In this document: positions 19,201-64,000 of the stretch, piece by piece
Numbering within the stretch: the first letter of the stretch is position 1
How the letters are laid out: each line of letters begins with the position of its first letter
Source of the DNA: Crocosphaera sp.
Lineage (GTDB): Bacteria; Cyanobacteriota; Cyanobacteriia; Cyanobacteriales; Microcystaceae
Direction: 5' to 3'
NCBI RefSeq assembly: GCF_030064895.1
Contig: NZ_JASJEB010000020.1
Coordinates: 1 to 64,000 of the forward strand
Length of the DNA stretch: 64,000 nt
Position numbers and translations under genes: made by a program
The notes under the pieces: model-generated
Database searches by the model: none
What the model saw: only the letters and a program-made list of their open reading frames with translations
Told to the model about the DNA's origin: nothing

Positions 19201-19229
19201 TAACCAAAGATTTCAACTCATTTTTAAGA

Positions 19230-19294
19230 GTTATCAGTCATAAGTTATCAGTTATCAGTTAAGTTTATTTCTCACTGTTAACTGTTAACTGTTT
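19230..19294. repeat. Short tandem repeats GTTATCA/AACTGTT
   Basis: Repeated TTATCAG units are followed by AACTGTT units. Their right end overlaps the last codons of menG, whose C-terminal KTVNS is encoded within the repeat. Similar units recur near 30.57 kb and 34.77 kb. Confidence 0.75.
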
Positions 19295-30479: not shown

Positions 30480-30566
30480 GGTTATTTTTGAAGAAGGAGT
30501 TAGAGGGAGGTAAATATATAAATAAACTTTATTAATTCTAAAGGAAATCTTGATCTTCGCAAGTCT

Positions 30567-30616
30567 TAGCCAGTTATCAGTGATCAGTTATCAGTTATTG
30601 TTCACTGTTCACTGTC
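30567..30616. repeat. Short tandem repeats CAGTTATCAGT and GTTCACT
   Basis: Several CAGT(T/G)ATCAGT units and two GTTCACT units lie between the ligase gene and the DUF1400 gene. They belong to the same family as 19230-19294. Confidence 0.7.
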
Positions 30617-31160
30617 AAAAGGGAAGATCGGGGATATTATCGAGAAACCCCTCAATATTTTGATAGACTTCTACTAAGCGATCGCCGTCTACATGAATTT
30701 CTTCGGTGGGATAGTTTTCAAATATTTCAACTAAGCGTATATTTTGATCGGATAAGGCTGAGGTAACTAAAGCACCTCTTAAGGATTCTTTATTAGCGCG
30801 TTTTGATGGAGTGTGAATTACTTCCCCGATGGGATCAAGTATCATTCCTCCTGCAAAACTATTAAGAACTTTGGATAAAAAAACGGGATCAACATCCACA
30901 TTCTGATTTAATAATGCTCTTAATTCTTCTGGTTTTTTATTGGCTAATCTCAGATAGTTTTTTAGGGATCTTGATGTTTCTCCTGTGTTTGCTAACTGAC
31001 TTAATTCTTGAACAGAAATAGATTCCCTTAAAATGCTGTATTTTAAGACTACTCTTTCGGCCCCTTGGACTGACTGTTTAGTAAAAGTTAGCCCTAACAT
31101 AGCTAATATAAAACTAAAAATAAGTTGAGATTGTTTAAATAGCTTTTTGTTCTGTGTCAT
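30615..31160 (-). CDS. DUF1400 domain, secreted protein
   Basis: From the ATG at 31160 (MTQNKKLFKQ) the protein has 181 residues with a signal peptide ending near SVQG-AERVV. The mature part begins with the typical DUF1400 opening (AERVVLKYSILRESISVQELSQLANTG). This domain is found in cyanobacteria at the N-terminus of alpha/beta hydrolases and also alone, as here. The role is unknown. A longer form from 31256 would put 32 residues before the signal peptide, which I consider unlikely. The stop codon touches a short tandem repeat. Confidence 0.75.
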   Translation of the reverse strand: MTQNKKLFKQSQLIFSFILAMLGLTFTKQSVQGAERVVLKYSILRESISVQELSQLANTGETSRSLKNYLRLANKKPEELRALLNQNVDVDPVFLSKVLNSFAGGMILDPIGEVIHTPSKRANKESLRGALVTSALSDQNIRLVEIFENYPTEEIHVDGDRLVEVYQNIEGFLDNIPDLPF

Positions 31161-37776: not shown

Positions 37777-39357
37777 CTATTTAATCATCGGCGCTTTAAC
37801 TGCCAAATCATAGCGAGAAGCAACTTCTACTTCTTCAACTAAACTAGGCACAGATTGACGTAACAAAGCGGTTAATTGAGTGGTGGTTGAATCGTAAATC
37901 TGAGTCACAATTTTCGGATACAAACCAATACCAATAATGGGAATTAACAGACAGGCAATAATAAACACCTCTCTGGGTTCTGCGTCAATTAGTTTGGTAT
38001 GAGAAACTAACTCTTTATTCTCCGGTCCATACAACATTTCTCGTAACATGGACAGTAAATAAATGGGGGTTAAAATGACACCAATGGCAGCTAAAAAGAC
38101 GATAATAACTTTGAAAGTCGAGTTATAAGCATCGCTAGTAGCAAAGCCCACAAACACCATTAATTCTGCCACAAAGCCACTCATTCCCGGCAACGCTAAA
38201 GAAGCCATTGAACAAGTGGTCCACATAGCAAATACCTTCTTCATTTTCTGACCAACACCACCCATTTCATCTAACATTAGGGTATGGGTACGGTCGTAGG
38301 TTGCCCCCACCATAAAGAAGAGACTCGCCCCAATTAAACCGTGGGAAATCATCTGTAACATTGCCCCACTCATACCAATATCGGTAAACGAAGCAATACC
38401 TATCAAGACAAACCCCATGTGAGAGATGGAAGAATAGGCAATTTTCCGCTTTAGGTTACGTTGGGCAAAGGAGGTTAAGGCCGCATAAACAATATTCACC
38501 ACCCCTAAAATAACCAACACCGGGGCAAAATAGGCGTGGGCATCGGATAACATTTGTGCATTCATCCGTATCAGGGCATAACCCCCCATTTTTAAGAGAA
38601 TACCCGCTAGTAACATATGCGCCGGCGCTGTAGCTTCTCCGTGGGCATCCGGTAGCCAAGTATGAAGGGGAAAAATCGGTAATTTTACTCCGTAGGCGAT
38701 GAGGAAACCAGCATACAAGAATAATTGTAACTTCAACGGGATATCTTTAGCTGCGATGGTCGCCATATCAAAGGTGACAGTATCCCCGTAAAAGGCCATG
38801 GTTAAAGCAGCAACCAGGATAAACAAAGAACCCCCTGCTGTGTAGAGGATAAACTTAGTAGCTGCGTACAAACGCCGTTTTCCGCCCCAAATAGATAAAA
38901 TAAGGTAAACCGGAACTAATTCTAATTCCCAAACCAGGAAAAACAGTAACATATCCTGTACAGCAAACACGGCTATTTGTCCGCCGTACATAGCTAACAT
39001 CAGGAAATAGAAGAGTTTGGGCTTAAAAGTCACCGGCCAAGCAGCCATGGTTGCTAAAGTGGTGATAAAGCCGGTTAATAAAATCAGAGGCATAGCCAAG
39101 CCATCAGCCCCCACAGACCATTTTAGGTCTAGTTGCGGAACCCAAGCATAGCTTTCTACTAGCTGTAAGTCGGGGTTACTGAGGTCATAACCGGTATAAA
39201 AAGCGTATACAATAATAGCAAAATCGATTAAACCCACGGTTAAAGCGTACCAACGGACGGTTTTGCCGTCTTTGTCGGGAATAATGGGGATTAACAAGGC
39301 TGCTACAATGGGAAAGAGAATAATGGTGGTTAACCAAGGAAAATTAGCAAGGTTCAT
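37777..39357 (-). CDS. ndhD: NAD(P)H-quinone oxidoreductase (NDH-1) subunit 4, NdhD
   Basis: NdhD is a proton-pumping, antiporter-like membrane subunit of the cyanobacterial NDH-1 complex, used in cyclic electron flow and respiration. The 526 residues carry about 14 helices. Conserved charged helices are visible in [18 protein letters not shown] (the key Glu), [20 protein letters not shown] (key Lys and His) and [19 protein letters not shown]. The sequence best fits the NdhD1/D2 (respiratory) branch rather than the CO2-uptake NdhD3/D4, but I hold that split loosely. No other ndh gene is adjacent; ndhF often pairs with ndhD elsewhere. Confidence 0.94.
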
Positions 39358-39615
39358 TGATATTTTCTAAGCATTCATCAAAATTTAGGGTTTTGCTAGG
39401 AGTCAGGAGTGATATAACCATCTATGAAAGTTCCCTGTTGCCTGACACCAAACCCGTTCGGTATGATCGTGGTGAGAGCCTAAACTGTGAGGATAAATGA
39501 CAATCCAGACTATCACCATTACACCCATCAATTTAACAAGATTTTTCTATAGATAATATTGTAAAAATCTTAAATTTTTTGAAAGCTTTAATTGCTTAGC
39601 AATTTATAATTATAA

Positions 39616-39642
39616 ATTCTACATTCTACATTCTACATTCTC
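39616..39642. repeat. ATTCTAC heptamer repeat
   Basis: Three perfect ATTCTAC units and a partial fourth end four bases before the ATG at 39646. They occupy the place of a ribosome-binding site, so copy number could affect translation of the radical SAM gene. Confidence 0.85.
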
Positions 39643-39645
39643 AAT

Positions 39646-40974
39646 ATGACTTTATCTTCTTTTCGCCCTGCTAAAATTACGGCTGTTTTATCGGATTCTA
39701 TTGCCGAAGAAATTGGCTTTGAAGTTGGGGATGCTATTGTTTCTATTAATGGCACAAAACCCCGTGATTTAATCGATTATAATTTTTTATGTGCTGATGA
39801 ATTCTTAGAATTAGAGGTATTAGATGGTCAGGGTAAGCTGCATCAAGTGGAAATAGAAAAAGATTATGATGATAATTTAGGTTTGGAGTTTGAAACGGCT
39901 TTATTTGATGGTTTGATTCAATGTAATAATCGTTGTCCTTTTTGTTTTATTGATCAACAGCCTCCAGGAAAACGAGATAGTTTATATTTGAAAGATGATG
40001 ATTATCGTTTAAGTTTTTTGTATGGTAGTTATTTAACTTTAACTAATTTGACAGAAAGAGAATGGCAAAGAATTGAAGCTATGCGTTTGTCTCCTTTATA
40101 TGTTTCTGTACACGCAACGGAACCAGAAGTTAGAACTAAATTGTTAAAAAATGAACGAGCAGGATTAATTAAAAAACAGTTTAAATGGTTTCAAGAAAGA
40201 CGGCTACAAATTCATGCTCAAGTGGTGGTATGTCCTGGTATTAATGACGGTATACATTTAGAAAGAACTTTGCAAGATTTAGCGGAATTTTCTTTAGGAG
40301 AAATCCCCACTATTTTATCAGCAGCAGTGGTTCCTGTGGGTTTAACTAGATTTCGTCCCACAGAAGATAAATTAATACCTGTGAGCCAAGAAAAAGCACA
40401 AGAACTTATTAAACAAGTACAAACTTTACAACAAGAATTTCATCAAAAATTTAACAGTAATTTTGCTTGGTTAGCCGATGAATGGTTTTTAATTGCTCAA
40501 GAAGAGTTACCGACAGAATCTCATTATGAAGATTATCCGCAAATAGGTAATGGTGTGGGTTCTATTCGTCAATTTATTAAAGAATTTCAAGAAAAAGCTA
40601 AACAATTATTACCCGAAAAAATAGAAAATAAAAAAACCTTAACTTGGGTTGTAGGTAATGCAGTAGAAAAAGCCTTTCAACCCTTAGTTAAACAACTAAA
40701 TAATGTTGGAAATTTAACCATTAATTTAGCTCCATTAAATAGTGACTATTGGGGACAAGAAATTACCGTAACAGGTTTATTAACAGGAGAAGATATTGTT
40801 TCCAAATTAAAGAATAGAGATTTAGGCGATGGAATTTTATTACCTTCTATTATGTTAAAAGATCACGATACAGTTTTTTTAGATGATCTGAGTGTTGAGA
40901 AAGTTTCTGATTACTTAAACAGTCCTATTATCATTATTAATAGTATTTCTGACTTGATTAAAAATTGTTGTTAA
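39646..40974 (+). CDS. Cyanobacterial radical SAM/DUF512 family Fe-S protein
   Basis: The 442 residues begin with a PDZ-like segment (ITAVLSDSIAEEIGFEVGDAIVSINGTKPRD). A cysteine motif follows in LIQCNNRCPFCFIDQQPPG (CX3CX2C) near residue 95, then the DUF512 region (NGVGSIRQFIKEF; LLTGEDIVSKL; DGILLPSIMLK). This is the conserved cyanobacterial and clostridial family of putative Fe-S oxidoreductases. The reaction is not known to me. No Shine-Dalgarno is visible, because a heptamer repeat occupies that place. The gene stands alone. Confidence 0.88.
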   Translation: MTLSSFRPAKITAVLSDSIAEEIGFEVGDAIVSINGTKPRDLIDYNFLCADEFLELEVLDGQGKLHQVEIEKDYDDNLGLEFETALFDGLIQCNNRCPFCFIDQQPPGKRDSLYLKDDDYRLSFLYGSYLTLTNLTEREWQRIEAMRLSPLYVSVHATEPEVRTKLLKNERAGLIKKQFKWFQERRLQIHAQVVVCPGINDGIHLERTLQDLAEFSLGEIPTILSAAVVPVGLTRFRPTEDKLIPVSQEKAQELIKQVQTLQQEFHQKFNSNFAWLADEWFLIAQEELPTESHYEDYPQIGNGVGSIRQFIKEFQEKAKQLLPEKIENKKTLTWVVGNAVEKAFQPLVKQLNNVGNLTINLAPLNSDYWGQEITVTGLLTGEDIVSKLKNRDLGDGILLPSIMLKDHDTVFLDDLSVEKVSDYLNSPIIIINSISDLIKNCC

Positions 40975-56796: not shown

Positions 56797-57960
56797 ATGA
56801 AAGCCATGATTCTGGCCGCTGGGAAAGGAACTCGCGTTCGTCCCATTACCCATACCATCCCTAAACCGTTAATTCCCATTTTGCAAAAGCCTGTGATGGA
56901 GTTTTTGCTAGAACTTTTGCGACAGCATGGTTTTGATGAAATAATGGTCAATGTTAGCCATCTGGCCGAAGAAATTGAAAGTTATTTCCGTGATGGCCAA
57001 AGATTTGGTGTTCAAATCGGCTATTCTTTTGAAGGGAAAATTGTTGATGGTGACTTGGTAGGTGAAGCGTTGGGATCAGCCGGTGGGTTAAAACGAATTC
57101 AAGATTTTAATCCCTTTTTTGATGATACCTTTATCGTTTTATGTGGTGATGCTCTTATCGATTTGGATTTAACTGCCGCCGTTAAATATCATAGGGAAAA
57201 AGGTGCGATCGCTACTATTGTCACAAAATCGGTTCCCAAAGAAGTAGTATCGAGTTATGGGGTAGTGGTAACCGATGAGGAGGGAAGAATTCAAACTTTC
57301 CAGGAAAAACCCTCTGTAGAAGAAGCCCTCAGCACTAATATTAATACAGGGATTTATATCTTTGAACCGGAAATTATTAATTATATTCCCCCCAATCAGA
57401 AATATGACATCGGTGGTGAATTATTCCCCATGTTAGTTGAAAAAGGTGCGCCGTTTTATGCGGTGAGTATGGATTTTGAATGGGTGGATATTGGGAAGGT
57501 TCCTGATTATTGGCACGCTGTTCGCGGTGTTTTAAAAAGAGACATCAAAAATGTGCAAATTCCTGGAATTGAGGTTAAACCAGGAATTTATACGGGGTTA
57601 AACGTGGCAGTTAATTGGGATAAGGTTAATATTCAAGGGCCTGTTTATATTGGTGGAATGACTCATATCGAAGATGGGGCGACTATTATTGGCCCTAGTA
57701 TGATTGGCCCCAATTGTCTGGTTTGTAGCGGCGCAACGGTGGATAATAGCGTCATTTTTGAATATTCTCGTCTTGGTCCAGGGGTGCGTTTAGTGGATAA
57801 ATTGGTCTTTGGACGCTACTGTGTGGATAAAACAGGGGCGGCCATTGATGTACAGCAAGCGGCCTTAGATTGGTTAATTACTGATTCTCGTCAAATCTTC
57901 CCCGATGATAGCCAAATACCACAACAGGCGATCGCAGAATTACTTAATCAAAACCAGTGA
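56797..57960 (+). CDS. NDP-sugar synthase (nucleotidyltransferase with beta-helix domain)
   Basis: The 387 residues open with MKAMILAAGKGTRVRPITHT and PKPLIPILQKPVMEF, the nucleotide-binding signature of sugar-1-phosphate nucleotidyltransferases. VLCGDALIDLDL carries the metal-binding Asp, and WVDIGKVPDYW closes the catalytic domain. From about 255 a left-handed beta-helix follows (VNIQGPVYIGGMTHIEDGAT; IGPNCLVCSGATVDNSV). The product is GDP-mannose or a similar NDP-sugar; I cannot decide the base or sugar. The ATG at 56797 has GAGGAAAG upstream; a GTG at 56770 would add nine residues. A terminator-like hairpin follows. Confidence 0.88.
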   Translation: MKAMILAAGKGTRVRPITHTIPKPLIPILQKPVMEFLLELLRQHGFDEIMVNVSHLAEEIESYFRDGQRFGVQIGYSFEGKIVDGDLVGEALGSAGGLKRIQDFNPFFDDTFIVLCGDALIDLDLTAAVKYHREKGAIATIVTKSVPKEVVSSYGVVVTDEEGRIQTFQEKPSVEEALSTNINTGIYIFEPEIINYIPPNQKYDIGGELFPMLVEKGAPFYAVSMDFEWVDIGKVPDYWHAVRGVLKRDIKNVQIPGIEVKPGIYTGLNVAVNWDKVNIQGPVYIGGMTHIEDGATIIGPSMIGPNCLVCSGATVDNSVIFEYSRLGPGVRLVDKLVFGRYCVDKTGAAIDVQQAALDWLITDSRQIFPDDSQIPQQAIAELLNQNQ

Positions 57961-57965
57961 CCTGG

Positions 57966-58002
57966 GTTCGGAGTTTGGAGTTCGGAGTTCGGAGTTCGGA
58001 GT
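57966..58002. repeat. GTTCGGA heptamer repeat
   Basis: About five consecutive GTT(C/T)GGA units follow the NDP-sugar synthase stop. They belong to the same short-repeat class as those at 39616 and 62.5 kb. Confidence 0.85.
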
Positions 58003-58005
58003 CAA

Positions 58006-58034
58006 ATGATTTTCTCCTGAAAAATCATCTTTTT
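58006..58034 (+). terminator. Terminator of the NDP-sugar synthase gene
   Basis: ATGATTTT (58006-58013) pairs with AAAATCAT (58021-58028) over 7 bases and is followed by CTTTTTTG. The stem is AT-rich, but the T-run is clear. Confidence 0.65.
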
Positions 58035-58049
58035 TGCAGTCAGGGGTGA

Positions 58050-59291
58050 TCATGAGTTAAAACACTTATTAACTAAACAATTAGCAATTCTTTGTGCTGC
58101 CCCTGGTTTTCCCAGGCGTTTTTGTCCATTCTTGGCAATGTTTTCTAATTTTTTGGGATCTTTTATTAATTGAGTTAAGGAATCTCCCACTTGTTGAGGT
58201 GTATCTACTAAAGTCACGGAACACCCTAAAAGACGAGTTTGATTTTGAGCAAATTTTTTAGTAAACTGGGGACCGTTTCCAGGGAAGCTAATCACGGGTT
58301 TACCTAACCCCACAAATTGTTCTGTAGCTGTCCCGGCCATGGCAATACCAACATGGGACAATTGTAAACAAGTTTGATAAGCTTGTTGAGTAAGAATTAA
58401 GGAAGTTTCACCCTGAGTGAATAAAATAGCTTGAGGATCTGAAATTGATAAATTGTAAGTATTTTTTGCTTCTTTTTGCCAATTCTTATCTATCAAATCT
58501 TCTTGAAAAGGAATAGAATTAAAACTAGGGGTAATAGCTGCTAAAAATAATAGCGATCGCTGAGAAAAAACTGCTTTGATACTATCAACAGCTTGCAGGA
58601 TTAATTGCCAATTATTTTGTGCTTCTGGCATCCTTGAACCTGGTAATAAAAGAATGATTAAAGTTTCAGTTTCCGATGGAAAAGTTAGGGATTTATTAAC
58701 CGAAAAATTATCCATCATGGGGTTGCCTAAGTCATAAACAGGAATAGAGAATTTCTCTAAAATTTGAGCAGTAAGGCTATCCCTGACAAAAACACCGCAA
58801 CAAGTCAAACGATTCATTAACCAACGTTCCCAAGGAAAATACATCGATCCTAGCCAACGTTCAAGAAAGGATGTAGAAGTCAACCACCGTGTTTCATCTC
58901 GTAGATAATATTCTGATTTCGCCGTTCCCACAAAAGCAAACTCACCACCACTTAACCAAGCAAATAATAGAGGAAGAATATCACCCACTGCTAATATTTT
59001 GCCCCCATTTTCTCCCCATCGTTTTATAGTTTTATATTGATGATAAGTTAGGTTTAATAATCCACCGTTAAAATCACGCCATAATTGATTAATATCTTGA
59101 TTAAACCCTCCAGATGGCATAGTTTTCACTGTACCAATGATAGGAATATTGGCTTTTTCGTAAGCATAACCTTTCCCAACTAAGGGTAAGGCAGAAATTT
59201 TAGTAATGTCGGGAAACTGTCTCAATTCTTGAGCAATAGATACTGCAATAACATCTTCTCCATGACCATTACTAATAACTAAAATTTCCAT
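58050..59291 (-). CDS. Lipid-A-disaccharide synthase-related glycosyltransferase
   Basis: This 413-residue protein belongs to the cyanobacterial LpxB-related family (TIGR03492 type). It begins MEILVISNGHGEDVIAVSIA, has the GT-B fold with LIILLLPGSRMPEAQNNWQL in the second half, and the donor-side SHVGIAMAGTATEQFVGLGK with PVISFPGNGPQF. The family is thought to act on a lipid-linked acceptor, but it is not true LpxB and no lipid A genes are adjacent. No membrane segment is seen, so it is probably peripheral. Function beyond glycosyltransfer is open. Confidence 0.82.
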   Translation of the reverse strand: MEILVISNGHGEDVIAVSIAQELRQFPDITKISALPLVGKGYAYEKANIPIIGTVKTMPSGGFNQDINQLWRDFNGGLLNLTYHQYKTIKRWGENGGKILAVGDILPLLFAWLSGGEFAFVGTAKSEYYLRDETRWLTSTSFLERWLGSMYFPWERWLMNRLTCCGVFVRDSLTAQILEKFSIPVYDLGNPMMDNFSVNKSLTFPSETETLIILLLPGSRMPEAQNNWQLILQAVDSIKAVFSQRSLLFLAAITPSFNSIPFQEDLIDKNWQKEAKNTYNLSISDPQAILFTQGETSLILTQQAYQTCLQLSHVGIAMAGTATEQFVGLGKPVISFPGNGPQFTKKFAQNQTRLLGCSVTLVDTPQQVGDSLTQLIKDPKKLENIAKNGQKRLGKPGAAQRIANCLVNKCFNS

Positions 59292-62402: not shown

Positions 62403-63113
62403 ATGAAAATTCTCGATTCTAATCAATCATATACCTTTAGTAAAATTTTTGAATTGAAGGCAGAAGCGGATGAATTATAGCAGTCGCCAAAGCTATTAGG
62501 ACATTTTTCTGTTCCCTGTTCCCTGTTCCCTGTTCCCTTAAAATATAATTTATGTGTCCTAACTAGCCTGTCTATTGCTATAGTAGCTGATTTTGGTTAT
62601 ACTTTTTCTCGAAAAAGACTTAACTTACCTAAATATTCAGGACAGTTAGATAGACTAGAACAATTAAGCGATCGCATTACAGAAATTTTACCCAATGTAA
62701 GTCTGAGTACAGAAGCAGCTAGACGAGAAATTCTTATTTCTCCTGTGATTACTGATCTAGTTCACTATACTAATGCTCAACTAAGAATTGAATACTCTCT
62801 TAAAGTTTCTGAACAATTACAAGGCTATTTAGATTATTTTATTTATACCGATCGTTCCTTAATTATTATTGAAGCTAAAAAAGGAGATTTAGAATATGGT
62901 TTTAATCAACTAGCTGTGCAATTAATCGCCTTAAATCAGTGGAAAAATAATCAAAATAAAGCTAACATATTAGGGGCTGTAACCATTGGTAATATTTGGC
63001 AATTTGGTCAATTATTACCTCAGAAAAAACACCTCGAACAAGGACTAGAAACCTATCGAGTTCCTGAAGATTTAGAACTTTTAATGCGAATTTTAGTAAA
63101 GGCATTAAATTAA
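62403..63113 (+). pseudogene. PD-(D/E)XK nuclease-like gene split by a MITE
   Basis: The ATG at 62403 reads MKILDSNQSYTFSKIFELKA then EADEL, and then meets a TAG belonging to the inserted element. Beyond the element the same frame resumes at 62583 with VADFGYTFSRKRLNLPKYSG and runs to a stop at 63111. Joining the parts gives about 201 residues with a nuclease-like core: EQLQGYLDYFIYTDRSLIII, EAKKGDLEYGFNQLAVQLIAL (an Asp, then Glu-x-Lys). Such proteins resemble type I restriction or Uma2-like relatives; no partner is adjacent. A fragment from the ATG at 62745 may still be translated. Without the insert and one TA the frame is restored exactly, so the insertion is recent. Confidence 0.85.
62476..62582. 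mobile_element. 103-bp MITE with TA target duplication (IS630/Tc1-like)
   Basis: The element runs from 62478 to 62580, flanked by TA at 62476-62477 and 62581-62582. The left end TAGCAGTCGCCAAAGCTATT and the complement of the right end (TAGCAATAGACAGGCTAGTT) match imperfectly and both go on to AGGACA(C)AT. Inside are four TTCCCTG heptamers. TA duplication is the mark of the IS630/Tc1-mariner group, and a decayed IS630-type transposase lies 1.3 kb away. Confidence 0.82.
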
Positions 63114-63867: not shown

Positions 63868-64000
63868 GAAAAAAAAACTTACGGATATCGAGAGAGAGAT
63901 GAGAAGAAAAGACAAGAATTTAGAACAAAAATCAAAAAAAGGAAAAAAGAAGAATTAGTATATATTGATGAATCTCCGAATAGATAATAGAGAAGATTAT
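63868..64000 (+). mobile_element. Decayed IS630-family transposase fragment
   Basis: The plus strand from 63868 reads EKKTYGYRERDEKKRQEFRT, KIKKRKKEELVYIDES, then PNR and TAA. Shifting one base near 63978 gives IDNREDY, so a frameshift interrupts the common YIDESGIDNREDY motif of ISY100/IS630-type transposases. The Asp in YIDES is the second residue of the DDE site. The window ends inside it. Upstream sequence is truncated at the junction with the glycoside hydrolase remnant. Confidence 0.75.

Follow-up and report, generated by a model that had tools for sequence, protein, structure and literature searches.

The window, by which we mean the whole stretch of 64,000 nucleotides analysed here, lies in contig C106 of a draft genome of 5.5 Mb in 188 contigs. 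Its relatives mark it as a cyanobacterium, the 47 related loci bearing names that we read as cyanobacterial. A gene for a PD-(D/E)xK nuclease-like protein is interrupted there by a short element that carries a heptamer array and is bordered on each side by a TA dinucleotide. The features of the locus are as follows.

62403..63113, + strand: gene cut by the insert; it encodes a cyanobacterial PD-(D/E)xK nuclease-like protein, of 201 aa once the insert is removed (from the joined frame, homologues, PADLOC PD_DExK and the model of a homologue)
62476..62477, no strand: left TA of the target duplication
62478..62580, + strand: MITE, subfamily A, 103 bp
62478..62480, + strand: in-frame TAG stop brought by the insertion, after residue 25 (from translation); identical with the first three bases of the element
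62478..62503, + strand: left imperfect terminal inverted repeat, 26 nt, TAGCAGTCGCCAAAGCTATTAGGACA
62512..62539, + strand: heptamer array, 3 x TTCCCTG + TTCCCTT, with four GGG runs on the opposite strand
62555..62580, + strand: right imperfect terminal inverted repeat, 26 nt
62581..62582, no strand: right TA of the target duplication
62745..63113, + strand: residual open frame 3' of the insert, 122 aa, starting at GTG 62745 (residue 80 of the joined protein)
63869..64000, + strand: remnant of an IS630 transposase gene, continuing to C106:64314; a neighbour, outside the MITE

The length of the element (103 bp), its coordinates, its imperfect terminal inverted repeats (TIRs), the flanking TAs and the heptamers all agree with the original prediction, and removal of 105 bp (the element plus one TA) yields the single 201-residue frame that had been claimed. 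In the present sequence the frame opens at ATG 62403 and reaches a TAG after 25 codons, so that a 25-residue peptide results. Because 105 bp amount to 35 codons, the reading frame is kept across the insert and the break consists of the TAG only; downstream of that stop, the insert stays open and in frame with the remainder of the gene. The interrupted gene is probably a null allele. It might still be usable, through a restart of translation downstream or with the insert as a removable switch, and an insert of 35 codons with one stop, followed by a frame open to the end of the gene, would fit such a scheme. We hold this to be highly improbable, as the next in-frame ATG, GTG or TTG is the GTG at 62745, 54 codons past the insert, and excision by Tc1/mariner elements usually leaves a scar.

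The label “nuclease-like” of the original prediction was borne out by PADLOC PD_DExK, which matches two intact homologues (6.6e-28 and 4.9e-25), cleavage activity itself being putative. Support from Pfam was weaker: the residual frame and one homologue matched HSDR_N_2 with scores under the cut-off of that family, a search with the joined protein and another homologue gave nothing at E up to 0.1, and 15 sequences of a set of 21 matched HSDR_N_2 at E up to 0.01. Across the alignment of these 21 sequences D110 never varies, and E123 and K125 are conserved to at least 90%, which corresponds to the D ... (E/Q)xK motif. The predicted model of a homologue (pLDDT 89.4) found large-subunit mitoribosomal proteins as its top matches in Foldseek (E 7e-4), followed by the restriction enzyme DrdV (E 2e-3) and, more weakly, lambda exonuclease (E 0.04). 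Judged by its sequence, “nuclease-like” is a fair name for the product of the interrupted gene.

The element is short and free of a transposase, has TIRs and a duplicated TA, occurs in many copies and has an autonomous relative in the same genome; it is an IS630/Tc1-mariner (ISY100-like) MITE. Its six-frame translation, 35 codons in all, contains no start-to-stop frame of note. The two ends pair with each other when the + strand is folded as DNA or as RNA (z of -2.9 and -5.2, respectively). Read on the minus strand, the heptamer unit is GGGAACA. The pattern TTSCCTGTTSCC occurs four times in the window against 0.05 expected, with three overlapping matches in the MITE array and one at 39431.

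A genome search for further copies, proposed with the original prediction, revealed 76 visible copies of this form, here called form A. The left end together with the TA has 74 exact matches in the genome, compared with none for a reversed-pattern control, and the left-end pattern without the TA returns the same 74, so the TA is present at every copy whose left end is exact. The right end has 76 exact matches, 74 of them in form A and two in older two-unit copies. Of the right-end matches, 72 pair with left-end copies; two of the 74 copies lose their right side at contig ends, and two more, on contigs C15 and C140, lose their left end in the same way and bring the total to 76. When both ends were searched genome-wide with up to three mismatches, the only copy within the window was the one described here. 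Another identical copy of form A lies at C106:64775, 2.3 kb from the copy in the interrupted gene. Viral contigs contained no exact match to the left end plus first unit. Nineteen plasmid records matched, each over 28–35% of the element, corresponding to the array, and none matched over 80% of the element.

All 69 complete A copies among the loci fetched are identical over 107 bp, five more being cut by contig ends. Zero differences in 69 x 103 positions place the upper 95% bound at 4.2e-4 per site. A sister form, B, has TTGCCTG units, and its 13 complete copies are likewise identical to each other; left ends with one common substitution number 15, namely the 13 complete B copies, one cut by a contig end and one truncated. 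Of the 103 positions, 7 distinguish form A from form B, and the third base of each heptamer accounts for four of these. Since these differences recur in every unit, each array is internally uniform, as slippage or conversion would leave it. The number of units is four in A and B, one in L087 and two in L092 and L093; these last three are older single copies, and a further copy, L014, is without its right half. A congener, G007, contains four related copies with 3 to 5 units. Array length thus varies while the ends of the element persist.

Identity among copies might reflect gene conversion or collapse in the assembly instead of youth. Cyanobacteria are often polyploid, and the seven A copies cut by contig ends indicate that the assembly struggled with the repeat. 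Against this, 71 copies have distinct flanks, form B stays distinct from A at seven fixed positions within the same genome, and one of the occupied sites is empty in 8 of 8 congeners. We regard such an explanation as extremely improbable and attribute the identity to a recent burst of transposition.

Empty sites support the recent arrival. The joined protein was matched across the insertion point at 50% identity or more by the window itself and by 12 loci from other genomes (L097–L108) among 30 loci tested, L109 and the weak matches (about 25–31%) being left out of the comparison; all 12 homologous loci are ungapped at the insertion point. The nearest homologue, L097 in G010, a genome of the same family, is 79% identical, and its DNA reads GAATTAGTTGCTGAT with a single TA where the window has GAATTA, the element and TAGTAGCTGAT. 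The G010 gene is frameshifted farther along, so that the site is empty although the gene itself is broken. Since the nearest homologue is broken at a different place, the gene may be one that is easily lost. No close orthologue of the interrupted gene, and hence no allelic empty site, was found in the eight congeners searched. Another copy of the MITE, L027, lies in a dihydrouridine synthase gene (Pfam Dus, 3e-108), and at this site the flanks adjoin in a straight read-through with a single TA in all eight other species of the genus. The original prediction had spoken of a fresh MITE with TA duplications and had named the lack of any empty site and of further copies as evidence against it; the identity of 69 of 69 complete copies, the TA at 71 of 71 copies described below and the empty sites in relatives (12 of 12 homologous loci uncut, and 8 of 8 congeners empty for the L027 copy) bear it out, and both the 76 copies and the empty sites run counter to that objection.

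All 71 copies that have 10 bp or more of readable flank on each side (60 A and 11 B) show the TA at both ends. Around it, A or T occupies position -5 in 68 of the 71 copies and position +5 in 70, and C is scarce at -4 (1/71) as is G at +4 (4/71), so that the surroundings of the TA are weakly mirror-symmetric. For three of these copies the flanks are too short for placement relative to genes; 33 of the remaining 68 sit inside open frames of at least 120 aa, among which only the Dus gene was checked by Pfam. Avoidance of genes was considered as a candidate property: the 33 of 68 compare with a fraction of 0.652 among 693 target-like TA sites (binomial p = 0.005). This suggests that the copies are mildly depleted from genes, and because the control comes from this one window we do not lean on it. 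In-frame exaptation was considered as well, as a minus-strand frame of the element is open for 35 codons. Eleven of the 33 genic copies are placed so that this frame would be read, compared with 10 of 33 that have the corresponding phase on the plus strand, where the frame is closed, and for want of an excess the exaptation reading was dropped.

A plausible source of the transposase is resident in the genome. Contig C50 contains one complete element of 954 bp with matches to HTH_Tnp_IS630 (1e-13) and DDE_3 (7e-39), with ends TAGCAATCGCCAGGGCGATTAGGACA and TAGCAACCGCCAAGGCGGTTAGGACA and a TA on each side. Its left end agrees with that of the MITE at 24 of 28 positions (4 of 28 differ), and the right end of the MITE differs from the left end of this insertion sequence (IS) at 6 of 28. 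Ends of the IS that are 100% identical over 92 to 135 bp were found seven times for the left end and six times for the right, the complete copy included; apart from the complete copy, they sit at contig ends. All 12 ends read (7 left and 5 right, at 11 loci, the right end on C30 being left out) adjoin a TA. The recurrence of its ends at 100% identity indicates that the 954-bp IS was recently active. It comprises two frames that meet at a run of nine A, where a -1 step would give a protein of about 290 residues, and as the gene is split in this way the transposase may need slippage to be made. Runs of nine A occur in three IS630-type genes or remnants (L031:528-536, L034:1406-1414 and window positions 63869-63877), the one in L031 at the frame change, which suggests a transposase made by slippage. 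The remnant at 63869–64000 is 71% identical to the resident IS, and no ends of the 954-bp type were found around it. By eye, the MITE interior shows no clear derivation from the 954-bp IS. An origin of the heptamer from the IS was also rejected, as the IS has no heptamer and, again by eye, shares only CCCTTAAA with the MITE after the left end.

Studies of a related element allow this layout to be compared with a known system. ISY100 (ISTcSa), an IS630/Tc1-mariner element of Synechocystis PCC 6803, has imperfect ends of 24 bp, compared with 26 nt in the MITE, and, as here, duplicates its TA target and encodes a DDE transposase with an N-terminal HTH like that of the related 954-bp IS (PMC2170065, the parts available to us). 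According to the same parts of that paper, ISY100 inserts almost only at TA, which it duplicates, and mini-elements that retain 30 bp from both termini are as active as intact ISY100. Compared with ISY100 in its layout, the MITE differs in being noncoding, 103 bp long and furnished with a heptamer array; and whereas ISY100 is described there with one gene of 282 aa, the 954-bp IS has two frames split at nine A.

The differences of 4/28 and 6/28 between the ends leave room for another transposase, now lost or unassembled, that would move the MITE, the 954-bp IS being related to it only ancestrally at the ends. The genome does contain other IS630-type matches, five for DDE_3 and ten for the second frame of the IS, which such a view could draw on. 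The resident IS, for its part, has recently multiplied (12 of 13 matches 100% identical) and has the same TAGCA...TTAGGACA layout and TA target as the MITE; among the five DDE_3 loci, the four other than the resident IS comprise L032, L034 and L035, which show no ends of this kind, and the remnant L033, which has only MITE copies at its sides. A vanished transposase therefore strikes us as rather unlikely, and mobilisation in trans by an ISY100-like enzyme, with the resident IS as its plausible source, is the reading that we carry forward.

The relationship between heptamers and the MITE was examined within this genome and across the order. The double unit TTCCCTGTTCCCTG has 156 matches in the genome, and about 152 of them lie in form A, the array of which holds two such matches (148 in the 74 left-end copies and two each in C15 and C140); among the 100 places listed, three double-unit matches lie outside the MITE, on C24, C51 and C54. 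The original prediction that heptamer repeats of this genome can travel inside a MITE is thus upheld for TTCCCTG (about 152 of 156) only; inspection by eye of 39340-39700, 57880-58100 and 30500-30720, around other heptamer arrays of the window, found no MITE-like element at these three sites. The window contains heptamer arrays outside the MITE at 19229-19293, 30571-30613, 39616-39641 and 57966-58002, and the units of its other arrays are AGTTATC, ACTGTTA, CAGTTAT, GTTCACT, ATTCTAC and GTTCGGA.

The pattern TTCCCTGTTCCCTGTTCCC is present in 72 of 195 genomes of the order, with a maximum of 1,146 in G129 (overlapping matches counted), compared with 7 of 195 genomes for a control pattern read backward, 70 of whose matches fall in one genome, G042, which apparently contains another family of heptamer arrays. 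At G085:C1:3623465-3624087 overlapping heptamer matches extend over some 600 bp, apparently as one long array of the TTCCCTG type. A significant flanking inverted repeat was found around 5 of 30 arrays, taken one per genome (6 of 30 with the other control and cut-off). Three of the five (L304, L305 and L307) look element-like, and two (L299 and L314) resemble simple-repeat matches; L306 fell under the stricter cut-off despite its IS630-like ends. The corresponding figures were 5 of 18 arrays from four heptamer-rich genomes, 1 of 3 arrays of this genome outside A and B, and 6 of 52 blast-hit loci, equivalent to 5 of 49 distinct places (L289, L291 and L292 duplicate L144, L147 and L149). Within these sets L324 also duplicates L302. 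Dropped from the test were L332 and six of 58 blast-hit loci. The test undercounts, since its positive control recovered only 3 of 5 true copies. Most arrays tested across the order have no detectable MITE around them.

MITE-like elements with unrelated ends have acquired heptamer arrays on several occasions. Ends like those of the MITE described here enclose arrays at L330 and L340; a MITE-like type TAGCG...GAGGTACA does so at L305, L325, L335 and L282; and other array-bearing types have the ends AAGTAGTCGGACA (L144 and L290) or AAGTACCTGGACA (L266), with further kinds besides. The MITE-like stretch of the TAGCG...GAGGTACA type at L325 (G201:C1:230570-230990) surrounds an array of 22 units. 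At L215 (G067:C284:7150-7850) a related left end is followed by GATTCCC units, which correspond to the GGGAATC heptamer described in Xanthomonas. Unit numbers of arrays in MITE-like settings elsewhere range from 2 to 22.

In single-stranded folds of the MITE the ends pair and the array is left in the loop. The minus strand of form A is predicted to reach -31.6 kcal/mol with a quadruplex compared with -19.8 kcal/mol without it, a gain of 11.8 (RNA parameters, a proxy for DNA); with the same parameters, no quadruplex is predicted for the minus strand of form B. One could accordingly ask whether the array is a working part, its four GGG runs forming a G-quadruplex that favours transposition or serves host regulation. 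Both multiplied forms have four units, and in A the predicted quadruplex of the GGG strand lies inside the stem of the inverted ends. The GGGNATC and GGGGA(C/T)T heptamers of Xanthomonas and Nostoc offer a parallel in their G run on one strand and their preference for four units (Rehm et al., PMC4692102, in the parts available). Form B, in contrast, has GG runs only and no predicted quadruplex, yet it multiplied; MITE-like arrays elsewhere cover the whole range of unit numbers given above; and the known bursts number two. We consider a working role for the array very doubtful and treat it as passive.

Taken together, the element is very probably an ISY100-like non-autonomous MITE that is moved in trans and has undergone a recent burst, one copy of which breaks the nuclease-like gene, with the array as a passive passenger. 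An ISY100-like transposase supplied in trans would recognise the imperfect 26-nt ends and excise the MITE, which would then be pasted at a TA in an A+T-rich site; the duplication of the TA is observed directly, and the enzymology is modelled on ISY100. The likely supplier would be the resident 954-bp IS630 element, whose multiple copies are plain from the genome and whose cross-mobilisation of the MITE is presumed. By this route the version with four TTCCCTG-type units would have multiplied, so recently that no substitutions are visible yet, to 76 copies or more, and the sister version, with its four TTGCCTG-type units, to 13 or more. A single copy would have entered the PD-(D/E)xK nuclease-like gene and introduced the stop after codon 25, probably creating a null allele. 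The array would ride passively in the loop that separates the ends, its unit number varying from 1 to 5 within the MITE lineage, most simply by slippage.

Parts of this picture are already known. IS630-type MITEs that target TA are familiar, and BrickBuilt of Porphyromonas gingivalis precedes the present case as a MITE carrying a tandem repeat (PMC4596501, parts available). BrickBuilt is described there as having a unit of 23 nt and as present 19 times in the type strain, always between genes, whereas the MITE reported here has a 7-nt unit and at least 76 copies, 33 of the 68 evaluable ones within frames of at least 120 aa. The GGGAACA unit conforms to neither GGGNATC nor GGGGA(C/T)T, and, as far as the available parts of PMC4692102 indicate, the heptamers of Rehm et al. 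generally have no link to mobile elements, while nearly all those considered here lie inside one. The MITEs of Anabaena sp. 90 similarly break genes, 15 of 147 being located in disrupted ORFs; the available sections of that report (PMC3542288) describe no evident similarity to the IS ends of that genome and mention no array inside a MITE. Nezha (Zhou 2008, cited in PMC10969869) is an active cyanobacterial MITE according to its title, and we liken it to the present element by that title, not by sequence. A survey of titles and abstract openings, in which subscription journals were thinly covered, found no report of a cyanobacterial MITE that contains a heptamer array. The unusual points are the scale, the identity of the copies and the repeated appearance of G-rich heptamers as cargo in MITE-like elements of several types; the mechanism is ordinary and the cargo is not.

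Tandem heptamers have long been used as cyanobacterial markers, and we know of no settled account of how they spread. A heptamer probe is the subject of a 1995 paper (cited in PMC3542288), and STRR fingerprinting is named in an abstract. We can imagine a broader scheme in which G-rich heptamer arrays, abundant in many cyanobacterial genomes, are repeatedly captured and spread by unrelated MITEs, with one MITE as the main carrier in this genome and four GGG units perhaps aiding multiplication through a quadruplex in the loop, and we judge this scheme in its entirety to be distinctly improbable. As the copies are identical and a likely transposase is present, both transposition and the role of the array are open to tests with small constructs. 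The identical arrays at more than 70 sites, all within a MITE and roughly half of them located in genes, demonstrate a mobile carrier of heptamers directly. Mini-transposons can thus disseminate short tandem repeats.
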